This document shows, in pieces, positions 7,481 through 58,895 of a DNA stretch of 64,000 nt. This stretch comes from Rhodobacter xanthinilyticus (lineage in GTDB: Bacteria > Pseudomonadota > Alphaproteobacteria > Rhodobacterales > Rhodobacteraceae), in NCBI RefSeq assembly GCF_001856665.1, contig NZ_CP017781.1:1116001-1180000 (forward strand), in the 5' to 3' direction. Within the stretch, counting starts at the first letter, position 1; every line of letters begins with the position of its first letter. Below the pieces are notes generated by a model. It made no database searches. It worked only from the letters and a program-made list of their open reading frames with translations, and was not told where the DNA came from. The position numbers and the translations under genes are program-made.

Positions 7481-8035
7481 ATGAGCCATCATGTGGGAGA
7501 AGATATCCGGTCGTTGCGCAAATCGCGCGGGCTGACGCTGGTGGCGCTGGCGGGGGCGGTGGGGCGCTCGGTCGGCTGGCTGAGCCAGGTCGAGCGCGGC
7601 CAGACGCCGCCCTCGGTGCGCGATCTGGGCCAGATCGCCGAACATCTGGGCGTCAACATCAGCTTTTTCTTCCGCTCCGCGAGCCGCGCGCCCGAGGAAC
7701 AGGGGCTCGTGCTGCGCGCCGCCGATCGCACGCGGATCGGCTCGACCGAAAGCGGGCTCGAGGAGGAGCTGCTCTCGCCGAGTTTGAGCGGGTCGTTCGA
7801 GATGATCAAATCGGTCTTTGCGCCCGGCGCCTCGAGCAAGGGGCTGCGCAAGCTGCGCCCGAAGGAGGACGGCGGCGTGCTGATCTCGGGGGAGCTCACG
7901 CTGATCCTCGACGGGCGCGAGATCACGCTGGCGCCGGGCGACAGCTTTCAGTTCCGCGACACCGATTACGCCTGGCGCAACCCGGGCCCGGAGCCTGCGG
8001 TGGTGATCTGGGTGGTCTCGCCGCCGGTCTATTGA
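7481..8035 (+). CDS. XRE-family transcriptional regulator with cupin domain
   Basis: A 184-residue protein with an N-terminal XRE/Cro helix-turn-helix (about residues 5-60) and a C-terminal cupin fold (about 110-180, with the PGDSFQFRD loop). This is the architecture of small-molecule-responsive regulators of amino-acid, amine and polyamine genes. The start at 7481 is chosen because GAGGAAGGAG lies just upstream; an in-frame ATG at 7388 falls next to the presumed operator. It is divergent from the dehydrogenase and probably controls it and the aldolase gene that follows. Confidence 0.85.
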   Translation: MSHHVGEDIRSLRKSRGLTLVALAGAVGRSVGWLSQVERGQTPPSVRDLGQIAEHLGVNISFFFRSASRAPEEQGLVLRAADRTRIGSTESGLEEELLSPSLSGSFEMIKSVFAPGASSKGLRKLRPKEDGGVLISGELTLILDGREITLAPGDSFQFRDTDYAWRNPGPEPAVVIWVVSPPVY

Positions 8036-8109
8036 GGCGCGGCGGGGGTTGTGGAGCGCCGCCCTCCGCGCGCAATATGGCGCCAGACCGCGCTTCGATG
8101 GAGACCCCG

Positions 8110-8889
8110 ATGCCTGCGCCGCGTAACACGCTCAAACACCGCCTCGCCGCCAAGGAGGTGCTGCATGGCTGCTGGATCGGGCTGGCCGACCCCTATCTCG
8201 CGCAGATCTCGGCCACGGCCGGCTTCGACTGGCTGCTGATTGATGGCGAACATGCGCCCAATGACCTGCGCTCGCTGATGGCGCAGCTCGCGGTGATCGA
8301 GCCGAGCGCCTCGGCGCCGGTCGTGCGCCTGCCCGATGGCGACCCGGCCAAGATCAAGCAAGTGCTTGATATCGGGGCGCAATCTCTCCTGATCCCGATG
8401 GTCGAGAGCGCCGAGCAGGCGCGCGAGCTCGTGCGCGCGACGCGCTATGCGCCGGAGGGGTTTCGCGGCGTGGGCGCGGCGCTCGCGCGCGCCTCGCGGT
8501 TCTCGGCGATCCCGGATTATCTGACCACCGCCAATGCCGAGATCTGTCTGATCGTGCAGGTCGAGACCCGCGCGGGGATGGCCGCGCTCGACGAGATCCT
8601 TGGCGTCGAGGGGGTGGACGGGGTGTTCATCGGCCCGGCCGATCTGGCCGCCGACATGGGCTATCTGGGCCGCTCGGGCGCGCCCGAGGTCAAGGCCGCG
8701 GTGCTGGGCGCGCTCGGGCGGATCCGGGCGGCGGGCAAGGCCGCCGGGGTGCTGGTGACCGAGCCCGACTATATCGAGGAGGCGCGCGCGGCCGGGGCGA
8801 CCTTCCTCGGCGTGGGGATCGATGTGACGATCTTTGCCGGCGCGATGCGGCGGCTTGCGGCCGAGATGGCGGCCAGGCGCGGGGCCTGA
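8110..8889 (+). CDS. HpcH/HpaI-family class II aldolase
   Basis: About 259 residues of the metal-dependent 2-keto-3-deoxy-acid aldolase family, which cleaves 2-keto-3-deoxy acids to pyruvate or a ketoacid plus an aldehyde. Family motifs are visible: DWLLIDGEHAPND near residue 44, metal-ligand VQVETRAGMAALDEI near residue 150, and GVFIGPADLAADMG near residue 175. Upstream in-frame ATGs at 8076 and 8098 are possible; 8110 gives the usual family length with GGAG close by. The real substrate is unknown, and several family members are annotated loosely. It follows the XRE gene and may be co-transcribed with it. Confidence 0.82.
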   Translation: MPAPRNTLKHRLAAKEVLHGCWIGLADPYLAQISATAGFDWLLIDGEHAPNDLRSLMAQLAVIEPSASAPVVRLPDGDPAKIKQVLDIGAQSLLIPMVESAEQARELVRATRYAPEGFRGVGAALARASRFSAIPDYLTTANAEICLIVQVETRAGMAALDEILGVEGVDGVFIGPADLAADMGYLGRSGAPEVKAAVLGALGRIRAAGKAAGVLVTEPDYIEEARAAGATFLGVGIDVTIFAGAMRRLAAEMAARRGA

Positions 8890-54945: not shown

Positions 54946-54968
54946 TCGGGCGTGACCCGGTTCGTTGG

Positions 54969-54995
54969 AAAGGGCGCCTTCGGGCGCCTTTTTGT
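54969..54995 (+). terminator. Terminator of the NDUFS4-like gene
   Basis: A stem of about ten pairs (54969-54978 with 54983-54992, one G-T pair, TTCG loop) runs into a T-rich tail. It starts 23 bases past the stop codon. Confidence 0.85.
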
Positions 54996-55054: not shown

Positions 55055-55083
55055 TGTAACGATCTCCCCCGCGCGTGCGAATT
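55055..55083 (+). promoter_or_regulatory. ECF (SigF-type) promoter of the bufferin operon
   Basis: TGTAACG (55055-55061) and CGAATT (55078-55083) with exactly 16 bases between. The Caulobacter SigF consensus is GTAACC-N16-CGAA, so all but one core base match. It lies about 50 bases before the bufA start, and the operon's own sigma gene is five genes downstream, which implies autoregulation. Confidence 0.8.
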
Positions 55084-55133
55084 GCTTTGTGAAGGGCCGC
55101 TGGAGCCTTTCCACAATCCAAGGGAGACCGGAT

Positions 55134-55436
55134 ATGACTGCCACCAAGACCCGCGCGCTCGGCGCCTCGCTTCTGTGCGCCCTCGCCGCGATGGCCTCCG
55201 CGCCCGCGCAGGCCGCCGATATGGAGAAATGCTACGGCGTCGCGCTCGCGGGCCAGAATGATTGCGCCGCGGGCCCCGGCACCACCTGCGCGGGCACCTC
55301 GAAGGTCGATTATCAGGGCAATGCCTGGAAGCTCGTGCCGGCGGGCACCTGCACCGAGATCGAGCTGCCCGCGGGCGCCGATGGCATGGCGCGCCATGGG
55401 GCGCTGAGCGCGCTTGATCGCGACATGGCCTCCTGA
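55134..55436 (+). CDS. bufA: Bufferin-type RiPP metallophore precursor (DUF2282)
   Basis: A 100-residue precursor with a Sec signal peptide (about 1-27, cleaved after AQA) and a mature part with four cysteines: Cys33 (MEKCYG), Cys44 (AGQNDC), Cys52 (GTTCAGTS) and Cys73 (PAGTCTEI). This spacing is the BufA1 bufferin signature. In characterised members the MNIO enzyme BufB with BufC turns conserved cysteines into thiooxazoles, and the exported peptide binds copper. Start ATG 55134 has GGGAGA upstream. It is first in the operon, so it is probably made in excess over the enzymes. Confidence 0.88.
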
Positions 55437-55443
55437 GGCGCCC

Positions 55444-55476
55444 GCCCGCGCGCCCCGCGCGCGGGCTCTTTTCTCT
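55444..55476 (+). terminator. Partial terminator/attenuator between bufA and bufB
   Basis: Perfect 9-bp stem GCCCGCGCG (55444-55452) with CGCGCGGGC (55458-55466), followed by TCTTTTCTCT. Placed eight bases past the bufA stop, it probably stops part of the transcripts so that bufA RNA exceeds bufBC. Confidence 0.65.
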
Positions 55477-55477
55477 A

Positions 55478-55540
55478 AACCTGCCGCGCGCTCGCGCGCG
55501 GGCTCTTCTCACCGAACCTGCCGCGCGCTCGCGCGCGGGC
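55478..55540 (+). repeat. Tandem direct repeat of hairpin units between bufA and bufB
   Basis: A 26-base unit (AACCTGCCGCGCGCTCGCGC...) occurs at 55478-55503 and again at 55515-55540, 37 bases apart. Each copy folds on itself (GCGCGC-type arms). With the preceding stem, three similar hairpins stand in a row before bufB. Confidence 0.75.
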
Positions 55541-55579
55541 CCCCGCCGGCCCGCGCCGGCTCTCACCCCGGAGGCCGCC

Positions 55580-56446
55580 ATGCCCCCTCTTGCCAAGCCG
55601 ACCCTGCCGCCCGCCGTCGGGCTGGGTTTCAAGCCCGAGCATTTCGCCGCCATCCGCGCCGACCGGCGCCGGGTCGCGTTTTTCGAGGTCCATGCCGAGA
55701 ACTACCTCGGCGCGGGCGGTCTGCCCCATGCCCAGCTCACCGCGCTGCGCGCCGATTACGCGCTCTCCTTCCATGGCGTCGGGCTCTCGATCGGCGGCGC
55801 CGAGCCGCTCGACCGCGCCCATCTCGCCCGGCTGCGCGCGCTGTGTGACCGCTACGCCCCCGCGAGCTTTTCCGAGCATCTCGCCTGGTCGAGCCACGGC
55901 GGCGCCTATCTCAACGACCTGCTGCCGCTGCCCTATACCGAGGCGACGCTCGCCACCGTCTGCGCCCATGTCGAGACCCTCCAGGAGGCGCTCGGCCGCC
56001 AGATTCTCCTTGAAAATCCATCGACTTACCTCCTCTTCGAGCAATCCGACATCCCCGAGGCCGAGTTCTTGCGCCAGATCGCGCGGCGCACCGGCTGCGG
56101 GCTGCTGCTCGATGTGAACAACCTCTACGTCTCCGCCATCAACCACCGCGCCGACCCTTGGGCGATGCTCGCCGATTTCCCGCTCGCGGCGGTGGGCGAG
56201 ATCCATCTGGGCGGCCATGATCAGCACGATCTGCCCGAAGGCCCGCTGCTGATCGATGCCCATGGCGCGCCGGTCGCCGATCCGGTCTGGGCGCTTTACG
56301 CCGAGGCGGTGGCGCGGATCGGCGCCTGCGCGACGCTGATCGAATGGGGCAATGATCTGCCGGATTGGGCGGTTCTCGCCGCGGAGGCGGGGCGCGCGGC
56401 GGCGATTCTGGCGGGGGAGGGGCGGCGCCATGCGCGGGCATCGTGA
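55580..56446 (+). CDS. bufB: MNIO-family (DUF692) RiPP-modifying oxidase
   Basis: A 288-residue multinuclear non-heme iron oxidase with a TIM-barrel. Candidate iron and substrate residues lie in [53 protein letters not shown] and LIEWGND. With BufC it oxidises precursor cysteines using O2. ATG 55580 follows GGAGG. The stop lies inside bufC (17-base overlap). Confidence 0.92.
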
Positions 56447-57179
56447 GACCCTTGCGGCCTTTGGCGGCGCGCTCGCGCCGGGGGCGGGCGCGCCGCCGGC
56501 GGGGCTGCGCGCGCCCACGACCGAGGGGCTCGCGCGCCGCTTCGCCGTCTATCGCAACACCGCCGCCGTCACCCGCGCCCGCGCCCTCGCGCAGCGTTTC
56601 GCGGTGATCGAGCGGCTCCTCGGTGCGGAGTTCTTCGCCGCGCTCGCCGCCGAATTCATCGCCCGGCACCCGCCGCAAAGCCCGGTCCTGCACGAATGGG
56701 GTGCGGAATTCCCGATGTTTCTCAAACACTTCCTGCCGCTCGCCGGGTATCCCTACCTCGCCGATGTCGCCCGCATCGACTGGGCGCGCGGCGAGGCCTT
56801 CCACGCGCCCGATGCCGCCGCGCTCGCGCCGGCGCGCCTTGCCGGCGCCGATCCCGAGACCCTGCGCCTCGGGCTCCATCCCGCGCTGCGGTGGCTGGCG
56901 CTTGACACCCCCGCGGTGGCGATCTGGGCGCAAAACCAGCCCGGCGCCGCCCCCGCGGCGCTGCCCCCGGGCGGGCAGATCGCGCTGATCTGGCGGCGGG
57001 CGGATTTCTCGGTGCCGGTGCGCGCGATCACGGCGGGCGAGGCGGGCTTCCTTGCGGCGCTGGCCGCGGGGGCGCCGCTTGCCGCGGCTGCCGCCCGGGC
57101 GCTGCCCACCGATCCCACCGCGCTGCTCCTCGAGCTCCACCTCGGCGGCGCGCTCATCGAAAGCCAACCGCCATGCTGA
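56430..57179 (+). CDS. bufC: Bufferin partner protein (DUF2063)
   Basis: A 249-residue protein with the N-terminal DUF2063 pattern ([21 protein letters not shown] near residue 38, [41 protein letters not shown]). In bufferin clusters this protein recognises the precursor and presents it to BufB. The start at 56430 overlaps bufB by 17 bases; the stop overlaps the DoxX gene by seven. Confidence 0.88.
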
Positions 57180-57607
57180 CCCTCCTTGCCCGTTTCAACG
57201 CCCGCGCCGAGCGGCTGCCGCGCAACGCGGTGCTGCTCGCGCTGCGGATCTTCCCCGCGCTCGTCTTTCTGGCCTCGGGGCGGACCAAGGTCGAGGGCTT
57301 CACGATCAAGCCAAGCACTTGGTATCTCTTCGAAAATGACTATGCGCTGCCGCTCGTGCCGGCGCCGGTGGCGGCGGTGCTCGCCACTGGCGCGGAACAT
57401 CTGCTGCCGGCGCTGATGATCCTCGGGCTGGCGAGCCGCCTCGCCGCGCTCGGGCTGATCGGCATGACCGCGGTGATCGAGATCTTCGTCTACCCCGAGG
57501 CCTGGATCACCCATGGGCTGTGGGCCGCGGCGCTGCTCGCCGGGGTTGCCTTCGGGCCCGGCGGCTGGTCGCTCGACCGCCTGCTCGGGCTCGAGCGGGC
57601 GCGATGA
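57173..57607 (+). CDS. bufD: DoxX-family membrane protein
   Basis: A 144-residue DoxX protein with about four hydrophobic spans ([18 protein letters not shown], the later [20 protein letters not shown]). DoxX proteins are frequent partners in bufferin operons, with a suggested role in redox or membrane handling of the product; the activity is unknown. It overlaps bufC, and its stop overlaps the ATG at 57604 by four bases. Confidence 0.85.
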
Positions 57608-57708
57608 GGCTGGCGGTCGCGCCCGAGGCTGGACCGGCGCCCCGGCGCGGCGCTAAGCTCGCGCCGGTGGCGGCAGCGGCCGCCGCAGCGGGGCAGGGGG
57701 CGGCGACG

Positions 57709-58611
57709 ATGGCGCAAGACGGCTGGGAGGCGCTTTTGATCCGCGCCAATCGCGGCGACGGCGCGGCCTTCGCGCAATTTCTGCGCGAGGTGAGCCCGGT
57801 GATCCGCACGATCTTGCGCGCGCGCGGCGCCGGCCTGCCGCCCGATCAGCATGAAGATGTGCTCCAGGAGGTGCTGCTCGCGCTGCATCTCAAGCGCCAC
57901 AGCTGGCAGCCCGGCGCGCCGGTGCGCCCCTGGGTCCATGCGATCGCGCGCTACAAACTTATCGATGCCTGCCGGCGGCGGGGCGCAGCGATCCATGTGC
58001 CGATCGAGCCCTTCGCCGAGAGCCTCGAGGAAACCCGCCTCGCGCCGCCCCTCGCCGGGCGCGATGCCGAGCGGCTGTTGGCCCAGATCGACCCGCGCGC
58101 GGCCGCGCTTGTGCGCGCGGTCACCCTCGAGGGCGAAAGCGCCGAGGCCGCGGGCGCCGGGCTGGGGCTGAGCGCAGGCGCGGCGCGGGTCGCGCTGCAC
58201 CGCGCGCTGCGCCGGCTTGGCGAGATTGTGGAAAGGAAAAAACGTGACCAGTCAGCAAGATACGGAGGCGCTGATCGCCGCGCTCGGGCGGGCGCCGGCG
58301 CCGGAGCCGCTGCGGCGGGGGGGGGCTCTTGGGCCTCATCGCGGCGGCGCTCGCGCTCGGGATGGGGGCGGTGTTGGGCGTGCTCGGGCTGCGGCTTGAT
58401 CTGGGCGCGGCGCTCGCAGTGCCGCTCACCGCGGCGAAAACCCTGCTGCCGCTTGGCCTCGCGGCCCTCGCGCTGCCGCTCTTGCGGCGCTCCACCCGGC
58501 CCGAGGGGCGCGCGCCGCTCTGGCCTTTCCTCGCGCCCGCGGCGCTCGCGGCGGCGCTCTTTGGCGCCCGCGCGCTTGCGCTGGCGCCCGCCGCGCGGCC
58601 GGTTGAGCTGA
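57709..58611 (+). CDS. sigF: ECF sigma factor (SigF-like), overlong open frame
   Basis: An ECF sigma with region 2 (about residues 15-85, DVLQEVLLALHLKRHSW and WVHAIARYKLIDACRR) and region 4 (about 115-178, ALVRAVTLEGESAEAAGAGLGLSAGAARVALHR in two parts). A working ECF should end near residue 180, where the anti-sigma gene begins. Instead the frame runs 120 further codons of Arg/Ser-rich shadow sequence across nrsF. One extra A in the six-A tract at 58237-58242 would give a stop overlapping the nrsF GTG, so the true end is probably near 58247. The start at 57709 gives the family N-terminus; ATG 57604, overlapping the doxX stop, is an alternative. Confidence 0.75.
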   Translation: MAQDGWEALLIRANRGDGAAFAQFLREVSPVIRTILRARGAGLPPDQHEDVLQEVLLALHLKRHSWQPGAPVRPWVHAIARYKLIDACRRRGAAIHVPIEPFAESLEETRLAPPLAGRDAERLLAQIDPRAAALVRAVTLEGESAEAAGAGLGLSAGAARVALHRALRRLGEIVERKKRDQSARYGGADRRARAGAGAGAAAAGGGSWASSRRRSRSGWGRCWACSGCGLIWARRSQCRSPRRKPCCRLASRPSRCRSCGAPPGPRGARRSGLSSRPRRSRRRSLAPARLRWRPPRGRLS

Positions 58612-58895
58612 TGGGCGGCACGGCGGCGGCCTGTCTCCTTTCGATCACGTTGATTTCGGCGGGCCCGCTCGGCGCGGGGCTCTGGGCGCTCCGGCGCGGC
58701 GCGAGCACCCGCCCCGCGCGCACCGGCGCGCTGCTCGGCCTTGCGGTCGGCGCGCTCGCGACGGTGGGCTACAGCCTCCATTGCACCGAGGATTCGCCGA
58801 TGTTCTACGTCACCTGTTATGGGCTCGCGATCGCGCTCATGACGGCGCTCGGCGCGCTCGGCGCGCTCGCGGGGGTGCGGCTTCTGCGCTGGTGA
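58244..58895 (+). pseudogene. nrsF: Anti-sigma factor NrsF (DUF1109), frameshifted in a G9 tract
   Basis: A DUF1109/NrsF membrane anti-sigma that should hold the sigma factor until metal or redox stress. The N-terminal 25 or so residues (VTSQQDTEALIAALGRAPAP) read in one frame from GTG 58244. The membrane part (LIAAALALGMGAVLG, about six spans, with cysteines in LHCTEDSP and YVTCYGLA that fit metal or redox sensing) reads in another. Removing one G from the nine-G tract at 58317-58325 restores a 216-residue protein. AAAGGA precedes the GTG. Whether this is an assembly error or true slippage is open. Confidence 0.8.

Follow-up and report, generated by a model that had tools for sequence, protein, structure and literature searches.

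Is the gene cluster at positions 55055-58895 of a 64,000-nucleotide stretch of the Rhodobacter xanthinilyticus genome a complete, self-amplifying bufferin operon under the sigma factor SigF, as an earlier note read it from the sequence? In this study, we compared the whole stretch (the window, to which positions refer; all features lie on the + strand) with related loci. The cluster is very probably a bufferin operon of the Buf1 type, belonging to a collinear subtype seen among Rhodobacterales, with bufA transcribed from a SigF promoter and an NrsF brake that is doubtful as assembled. The extent given by the earlier note was right, apart from the word complete. The operon type and its link with SigF and copper are already in print (PMC3511200, PMC8224329 and PMC12452194); the comparison of the promoters before sigF in collinear and divergent loci is new.

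Composition of the operon

Downstream of a SigF-type promoter lie, in this order, the precursor gene bufA, bufB, a DUF2063 gene (bufC), doxX, an extracytoplasmic function (ECF) sigma factor gene (sigF) and the anti-sigma gene nrsF. The gene order and overlaps were borne out by the open reading frames and a codon-usage model, and profile matches agreed with the family proposed for each of these genes. A terminator-like hairpin (54968-54993) sets the operon apart from the upstream gene, and the whole genome (3.78 Mb) contains one MNIO match and one NrsF match. The PF10048 score of BufA far exceeds the cut-off of 22.4 bits, identifying a DUF2282 precursor; the adjoining MNIO maturase also matches the NCBIfam BufB model NF050167 (380.5 bits, above the cut-off of 310), and the DUF2063 and DoxX profiles PF09836 and PF07681 both score above cut-off, as expected of a Buf1 cluster. 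The locus thus resembles the Buf1 clusters, in which sigma and NrsF genes are known to accompany the DUF2282, MNIO, DUF2063 and DoxX core (PMC12452194), and it is set apart from those described in the available portion of that paper by its long-tailed BufA, a tandem hairpin array and a frame break. It likewise shares all its families with Caulobacter CC3252-CC3257, together with a promoter close to the Caulobacter SigF consensus GTAACC-N16-CGAA (PMC3511200). The precursor had been credited with four cysteines. This holds for the mature part, where all four are invariant in an alignment of seven sequences; a fifth, however, lies in the signal peptide, as judged by eye.

For comparison we used 92 stretches, the window included, whose related loci are not independent samples: bufA and the MNIO gene were found together in 89, the four core genes in 86 and all six genes in 74. 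Within the genus the operon occurs in nine of 18 genomes. The kin of the locus are Rhodobacterales-like, in line with the host proposed earlier.

A SigF-type promoter before bufA

The strict pattern TGTAACG-N15-17-CGWATT has one match in the genome, that before bufA, and none in the reversed-pattern control. The loose form GTAACS-N15-17-CGAA gave nine genome matches versus 29 in its control, that is, at or below chance, so that the strict form alone is informative. Eight of the nine loose sites lie away from the operon; with the total below the control, they were rejected as further SigF targets.

The site recurs in relatives. When sites with a spacer of 16 and at most one mismatch were counted in the 300 bases upstream of the bufA match, they were present at 12 of 14 collinear loci, at 31 of 65 divergent loci and, where the stretch held no sigma gene, at three of 11 loci; the reversed controls gave zero, one and zero, respectively. 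A near-perfect SigF promoter before the precursor gene, unique in the genome in its strict form and conserved in relatives, is thus supported as a predicted feature, as is the placing of the operon under SigF, and the ECF sigma gene is accompanied by a SigF-type target promoter.

Collinear and divergent loci

Sigma matches were obtained at 79 loci (the window included), 14 of them collinear and 65 divergent. A SigF site before sigF (at most one mismatch) was found at none of the collinear and 42 of the divergent loci, and in neither reversed control. Caulobacter sigF has its own SigF-type promoter (PMC3511200), whereas in the window sigF follows the core genes on the same strand and no SigF-type promoter precedes it. 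Instead, TTGC-N18-TANNNT precedes sigF at 10 of 14 collinear and none of 65 divergent loci (TTG-N21-TANNNT at two of the 65). Among spacers of 14-22 the motif appeared at 18 alone, and when the letters of the collinear regions were shuffled it occurred on average at 0.058 and at most at one of the 14 loci; because the motif had been noticed by eye in these loci beforehand, its count is not an independent test. It may represent a housekeeping-type (sigma-70-like) promoter. The collinear loci lacking it are the window, which has a weak counterpart (Table 1), and L018, L021 and L022. The comparison suggests that one stress circuit is wired in two ways: in the divergent form bufA and sigF each have a SigF site upstream, and in the collinear form bufA alone has one, with a housekeeping-type site upstream of sigF. 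In a literature search of limited extent, no publication describing the collinear wiring came up.

The collinear loci also share a BufA tail of at least 20 residues after the last cysteine with a DGxAR motif (14 of 14), compared with 10 of 65 divergent loci for the tail length (two of these being script read-through artefacts) and two of 65 for the motif. Long-tailed BufA like that of the collinear subtype was observed at the divergent loci L031, L037 and L049. In the MNIO tree the window clusters with three collinear loci of the same genus (99/97), and the collinear label requires four changes versus a shuffled mean of 13.3; one collinear clade is absent from the tree, yet the approximately unbiased (AU) test does not reject it (p 0.486).

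An alternative start for the sigma gene in the window, ATG 57604, overlaps doxX. In L018 (7024-8156) two extra genes separate doxX from sigF; their products look by eye like a membrane protein of the CcdA/DsbD type and a protein similar to thioredoxin, and gaps of the same size are seen in L020 and L022.

Table 1. Features of the operon and their positions in the window
Feature	Position	Strand	Evidence
SigF-type promoter, TGTAACG-N16-CGAATT	55055..55083	+	sole genome match of strict pattern; recurs before bufA in relatives
bufA1, DUF2282 precursor, long C-terminal tail	55134..55436	+	PF10048 92.5 bits, E 1.6e-26
bufA-bufB gap with hairpin block	55437..55579	+	folding z -3.31
Terminator-like hairpin in bufA-bufB gap	55444-55466	+	
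37-bp tandem unit, 2.5 copies, in bufA-bufB gap	55446-55540	+	
bufB, MNIO maturase	55580..56446	+	PF05114 (MbnB_TglH_ChrH) 348.5 bits, E 2.7e-104
bufC, DUF2063 partner, overlapping bufB	56430..57179	+	PF09836 76.1 bits, E 2.6e-21
doxX, overlapping bufC	57173..57607	+	PF07681 54.5 bits, E 1.8e-14
Weak counterpart of sigma-70-like site, TGGACC-N18-TAAGCT	57630..57659	+	read by eye
ECF sigma (SigF-like) frame	57709..58611	+	Sigma70_r2 E 3.2e-8; PRK12512 174 bits, cut-off 198
Frame of expected nrsF start (GTG 58244), N-terminal segment, 51 codons then stop	58244..58399	+	no family match
G9 run where nrsF changes frame	58317..58325	+	homopolymer listing
nrsF membrane part, 188 codons, other frame	58329..58895	+	PF06532 132.5 bits, E 2.3e-38, profile 21-204 of 204

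Hairpins between bufA and bufB

A strong hairpin follows bufA in most relatives, and in the window it has grown into a tandem array. Folding of the bufA-bufB gap, measured at 84 of 89 loci (five were left out for gap length), gave a median z-score of -2.11, with 47 gaps below -2 and four at 0 or above. A perfect stem of at least eight pairs (G-U allowed; median 10) was present in 72 of the measured gaps, and a T-rich tail in only 12. The hairpin block may lead to differential expression of the precursor and the enzymes. A limited literature search found nothing in print on a stem-loop between bufferin precursor and enzyme genes, and PMC12452194 uses none of the words hairpin, stem-loop, terminator or frameshift.

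The sigF/nrsF junction

The description of the operon as complete could not be maintained, because sigF and nrsF are frame-broken in the assembly. The sigma frame stays open up to a stop at 58611, with similarity to kin ceasing near 58233, and nrsF switches frame at a run of nine G. An unbroken NrsF after sigF is thus absent from the assembly, possibly through assembly error, and in this the window differs from the Caulobacter SigF-NrsF pair. Both conserved NrsF cysteines are present, as C102 and C152 of the window fragment, with the same spacing of 50 as C131 and C181 of Caulobacter (PMC3511200). If the sequence is right, the NrsF brake is lost or impaired, because its membrane part and the conserved N-terminal segment are read in different frames. 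Loss of the brake on the copper buffer in nature hinges on one nine-base G-run.

The junction is intact in 74 of the 76 relatives in which sigma and NrsF were both matched: the sigma stop lies -13 to +5 bases from the nrsF start and nrsF has 209-223 codons. The exceptions are L004, with an unknown base, and L013 (Paracoccus sp. PAMC 22219, 7588-8228), a collinear relative whose nrsF likewise changes frame in its assembly. Within the genus, 12 NrsF matches were found in 11 of 18 genomes: that of the window's own genome begins at profile position 17, ten others begin at 1-7, and a weak one, under the cut-off, spans 85-164. We also considered translational frameshifting at an A6 run near 58237 and, on reasoning alone, rejected it, the codons being out of register with a usual slippery site.

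There is about an even chance that the breaks are assembly errors and that the true operon is complete and ordinary. The G9 run at the nrsF break is the longest homopolymer in the window (13 runs listed), but a C8 run and a G8 run sit in unbroken frames, and the end of the sigma frame departs from kin by more than run length. The codon-usage model of the window, which is blind to breaks near gene ends and in short segments, comprised 59 coding segments and flagged three same-strand frame changes; two of these turned out to be pairs of separate neighbouring genes that share a frame, so that only the sigma/nrsF junction was left, which argues against assembly error. In the genome at large, the first 30 of 57 overlapping matches yielded 15 distinct runs of nine or more G or C. 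The frame stays clear across one of them (L133) and shifts at the window's own run, where the upstream signal is weak. Another G9 run (L149, 1205-2250, C1 near 1071533) splits an Acyl_transf_3 acyltransferase gene into two frames matching profile positions 2-99 and 106-323, in favour of assembly error; the other runs lack clear coding on one side or both. Also in its favour, the window NrsF, 61-65% identical to three same-genus kin (72-73% among themselves), is not unusually diverged, and therefore a real break would be recent. The corresponding identities are 75-78% for MNIO (85-86% among kin) and 58-59% for DUF2063 (68-74% among kin). A synteny search of two same-genus genomes for further frame breaks placed the buf operon in other surroundings with few genes matched, and in the genus genome G001 the operon flanks lie on other contigs.

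That the breaks are real, with NrsF function lost, SigF active despite its run-on tail and the operon free of metal control, seems to us rather unlikely. The single local break in an otherwise clean sequence, the perfect SigF promoter that has been kept, a sigma frame 81-84% identical to same-genus kin and the repression of SigF by NrsF in Caulobacter (PMC3511200) all agree with it, but the extra tail, about 120 codons long, could render the sigma factor inactive. Decay of the regulatory pair after real breaks, leaving the operon poorly expressed, is very unlikely. Changes at both the sigma end and the nrsF start, and a site before sigF that is weaker than in most collinear kin, speak for it, but the core genes, the SigF promoter and the remaining nrsF frame look maintained.

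Discussion

Several observations weigh against this reading of the operon. In NCBIfam the only match of BufA is to a BufA2 model, with 19.4 bits far below the cut-off of 60; the HvfC model gives the DUF2063 protein 56.4 bits, under its cut-off of 142; and the nearest models for DoxX, for sigma and for the truncated NrsF frame also give scores under their cut-offs. A looser definition of the SigF site before bufA (500 bases, spacer 15-17) finds it at 56 of 90 loci and also at eight of 90 in the reversed control. The folding of the bufA-bufB gap is uneven among relatives, a generic promoter scan of the region found no sigma-70 site before sigF, and the window's own site there is poor. The circuit had been called self-amplifying; with no SigF site before any collinear sigF, it is self-amplifying at best indirectly, since feedback onto sigF needs read-through past a strong hairpin block, and the Caulobacter sigF operon was itself judged not strongly autoregulated under dichromate (PMC3511200). 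The copper or metal link of the circuit is inferred by analogy with Caulobacter.

In Caulobacter, SigF controls bufferin operons and NrsF is the negative regulator (PMC3511200), and copper induces the SigF regulon, including the sigF and nrsF transcripts (PMC8224329). It is unlikely that the natural trigger is another soft metal or an oxidant rather than copper. Chromate and cadmium also induce the Caulobacter SigF system (PMC3511200), and the Cupriavidus metallidurans gig (gold-induced genes) cluster, which PMC8224329 regards as the same cluster, responds according to that paper to gold, silver and copper; however, a Caulobacter sigF::Tn5 mutant is copper-sensitive and grows poorly with copper (PMC8224329), and Caulobacter Buf1 binds copper (PMC12452194). 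Buf1 carries thiooxazoles on its two central cysteines (PMC12452194), in agreement with the proposed cysteine modification of BufA; the mass shifts once anticipated at all four cysteines are not to be expected, because the outer two form a disulphide.

Taking these data together, SigF-RNA polymerase would initiate at the conserved site before bufA, and a single message might cover bufA-bufB-bufC-doxX and extend by read-through into sigF-nrsF. Downstream of bufA, the hairpin block could hold the precursor message above that of the enzymes. BufA would be exported through its Sec-type signal, BufB and BufC would, as for the Caulobacter homologue, convert its two central cysteines into thiooxazoles, and the periplasmic product would buffer copper, with DoxX perhaps in a supporting envelope or redox role. 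A second promoter, upstream of sigF, would supply basal SigF and NrsF; it would be of housekeeping type in most of the collinear kin and weak in the window. NrsF would normally restrain SigF until metal stress. A bolder proposal, which we consider a long shot, is a rewired Rhodobacterales subtype with housekeeping-fed SigF and anti-sigma factor and amplification by read-through only, in which slippage at the G-run has shifted the anti-sigma frame and makes the buffer in this strain always on or switchable from cell to cell.

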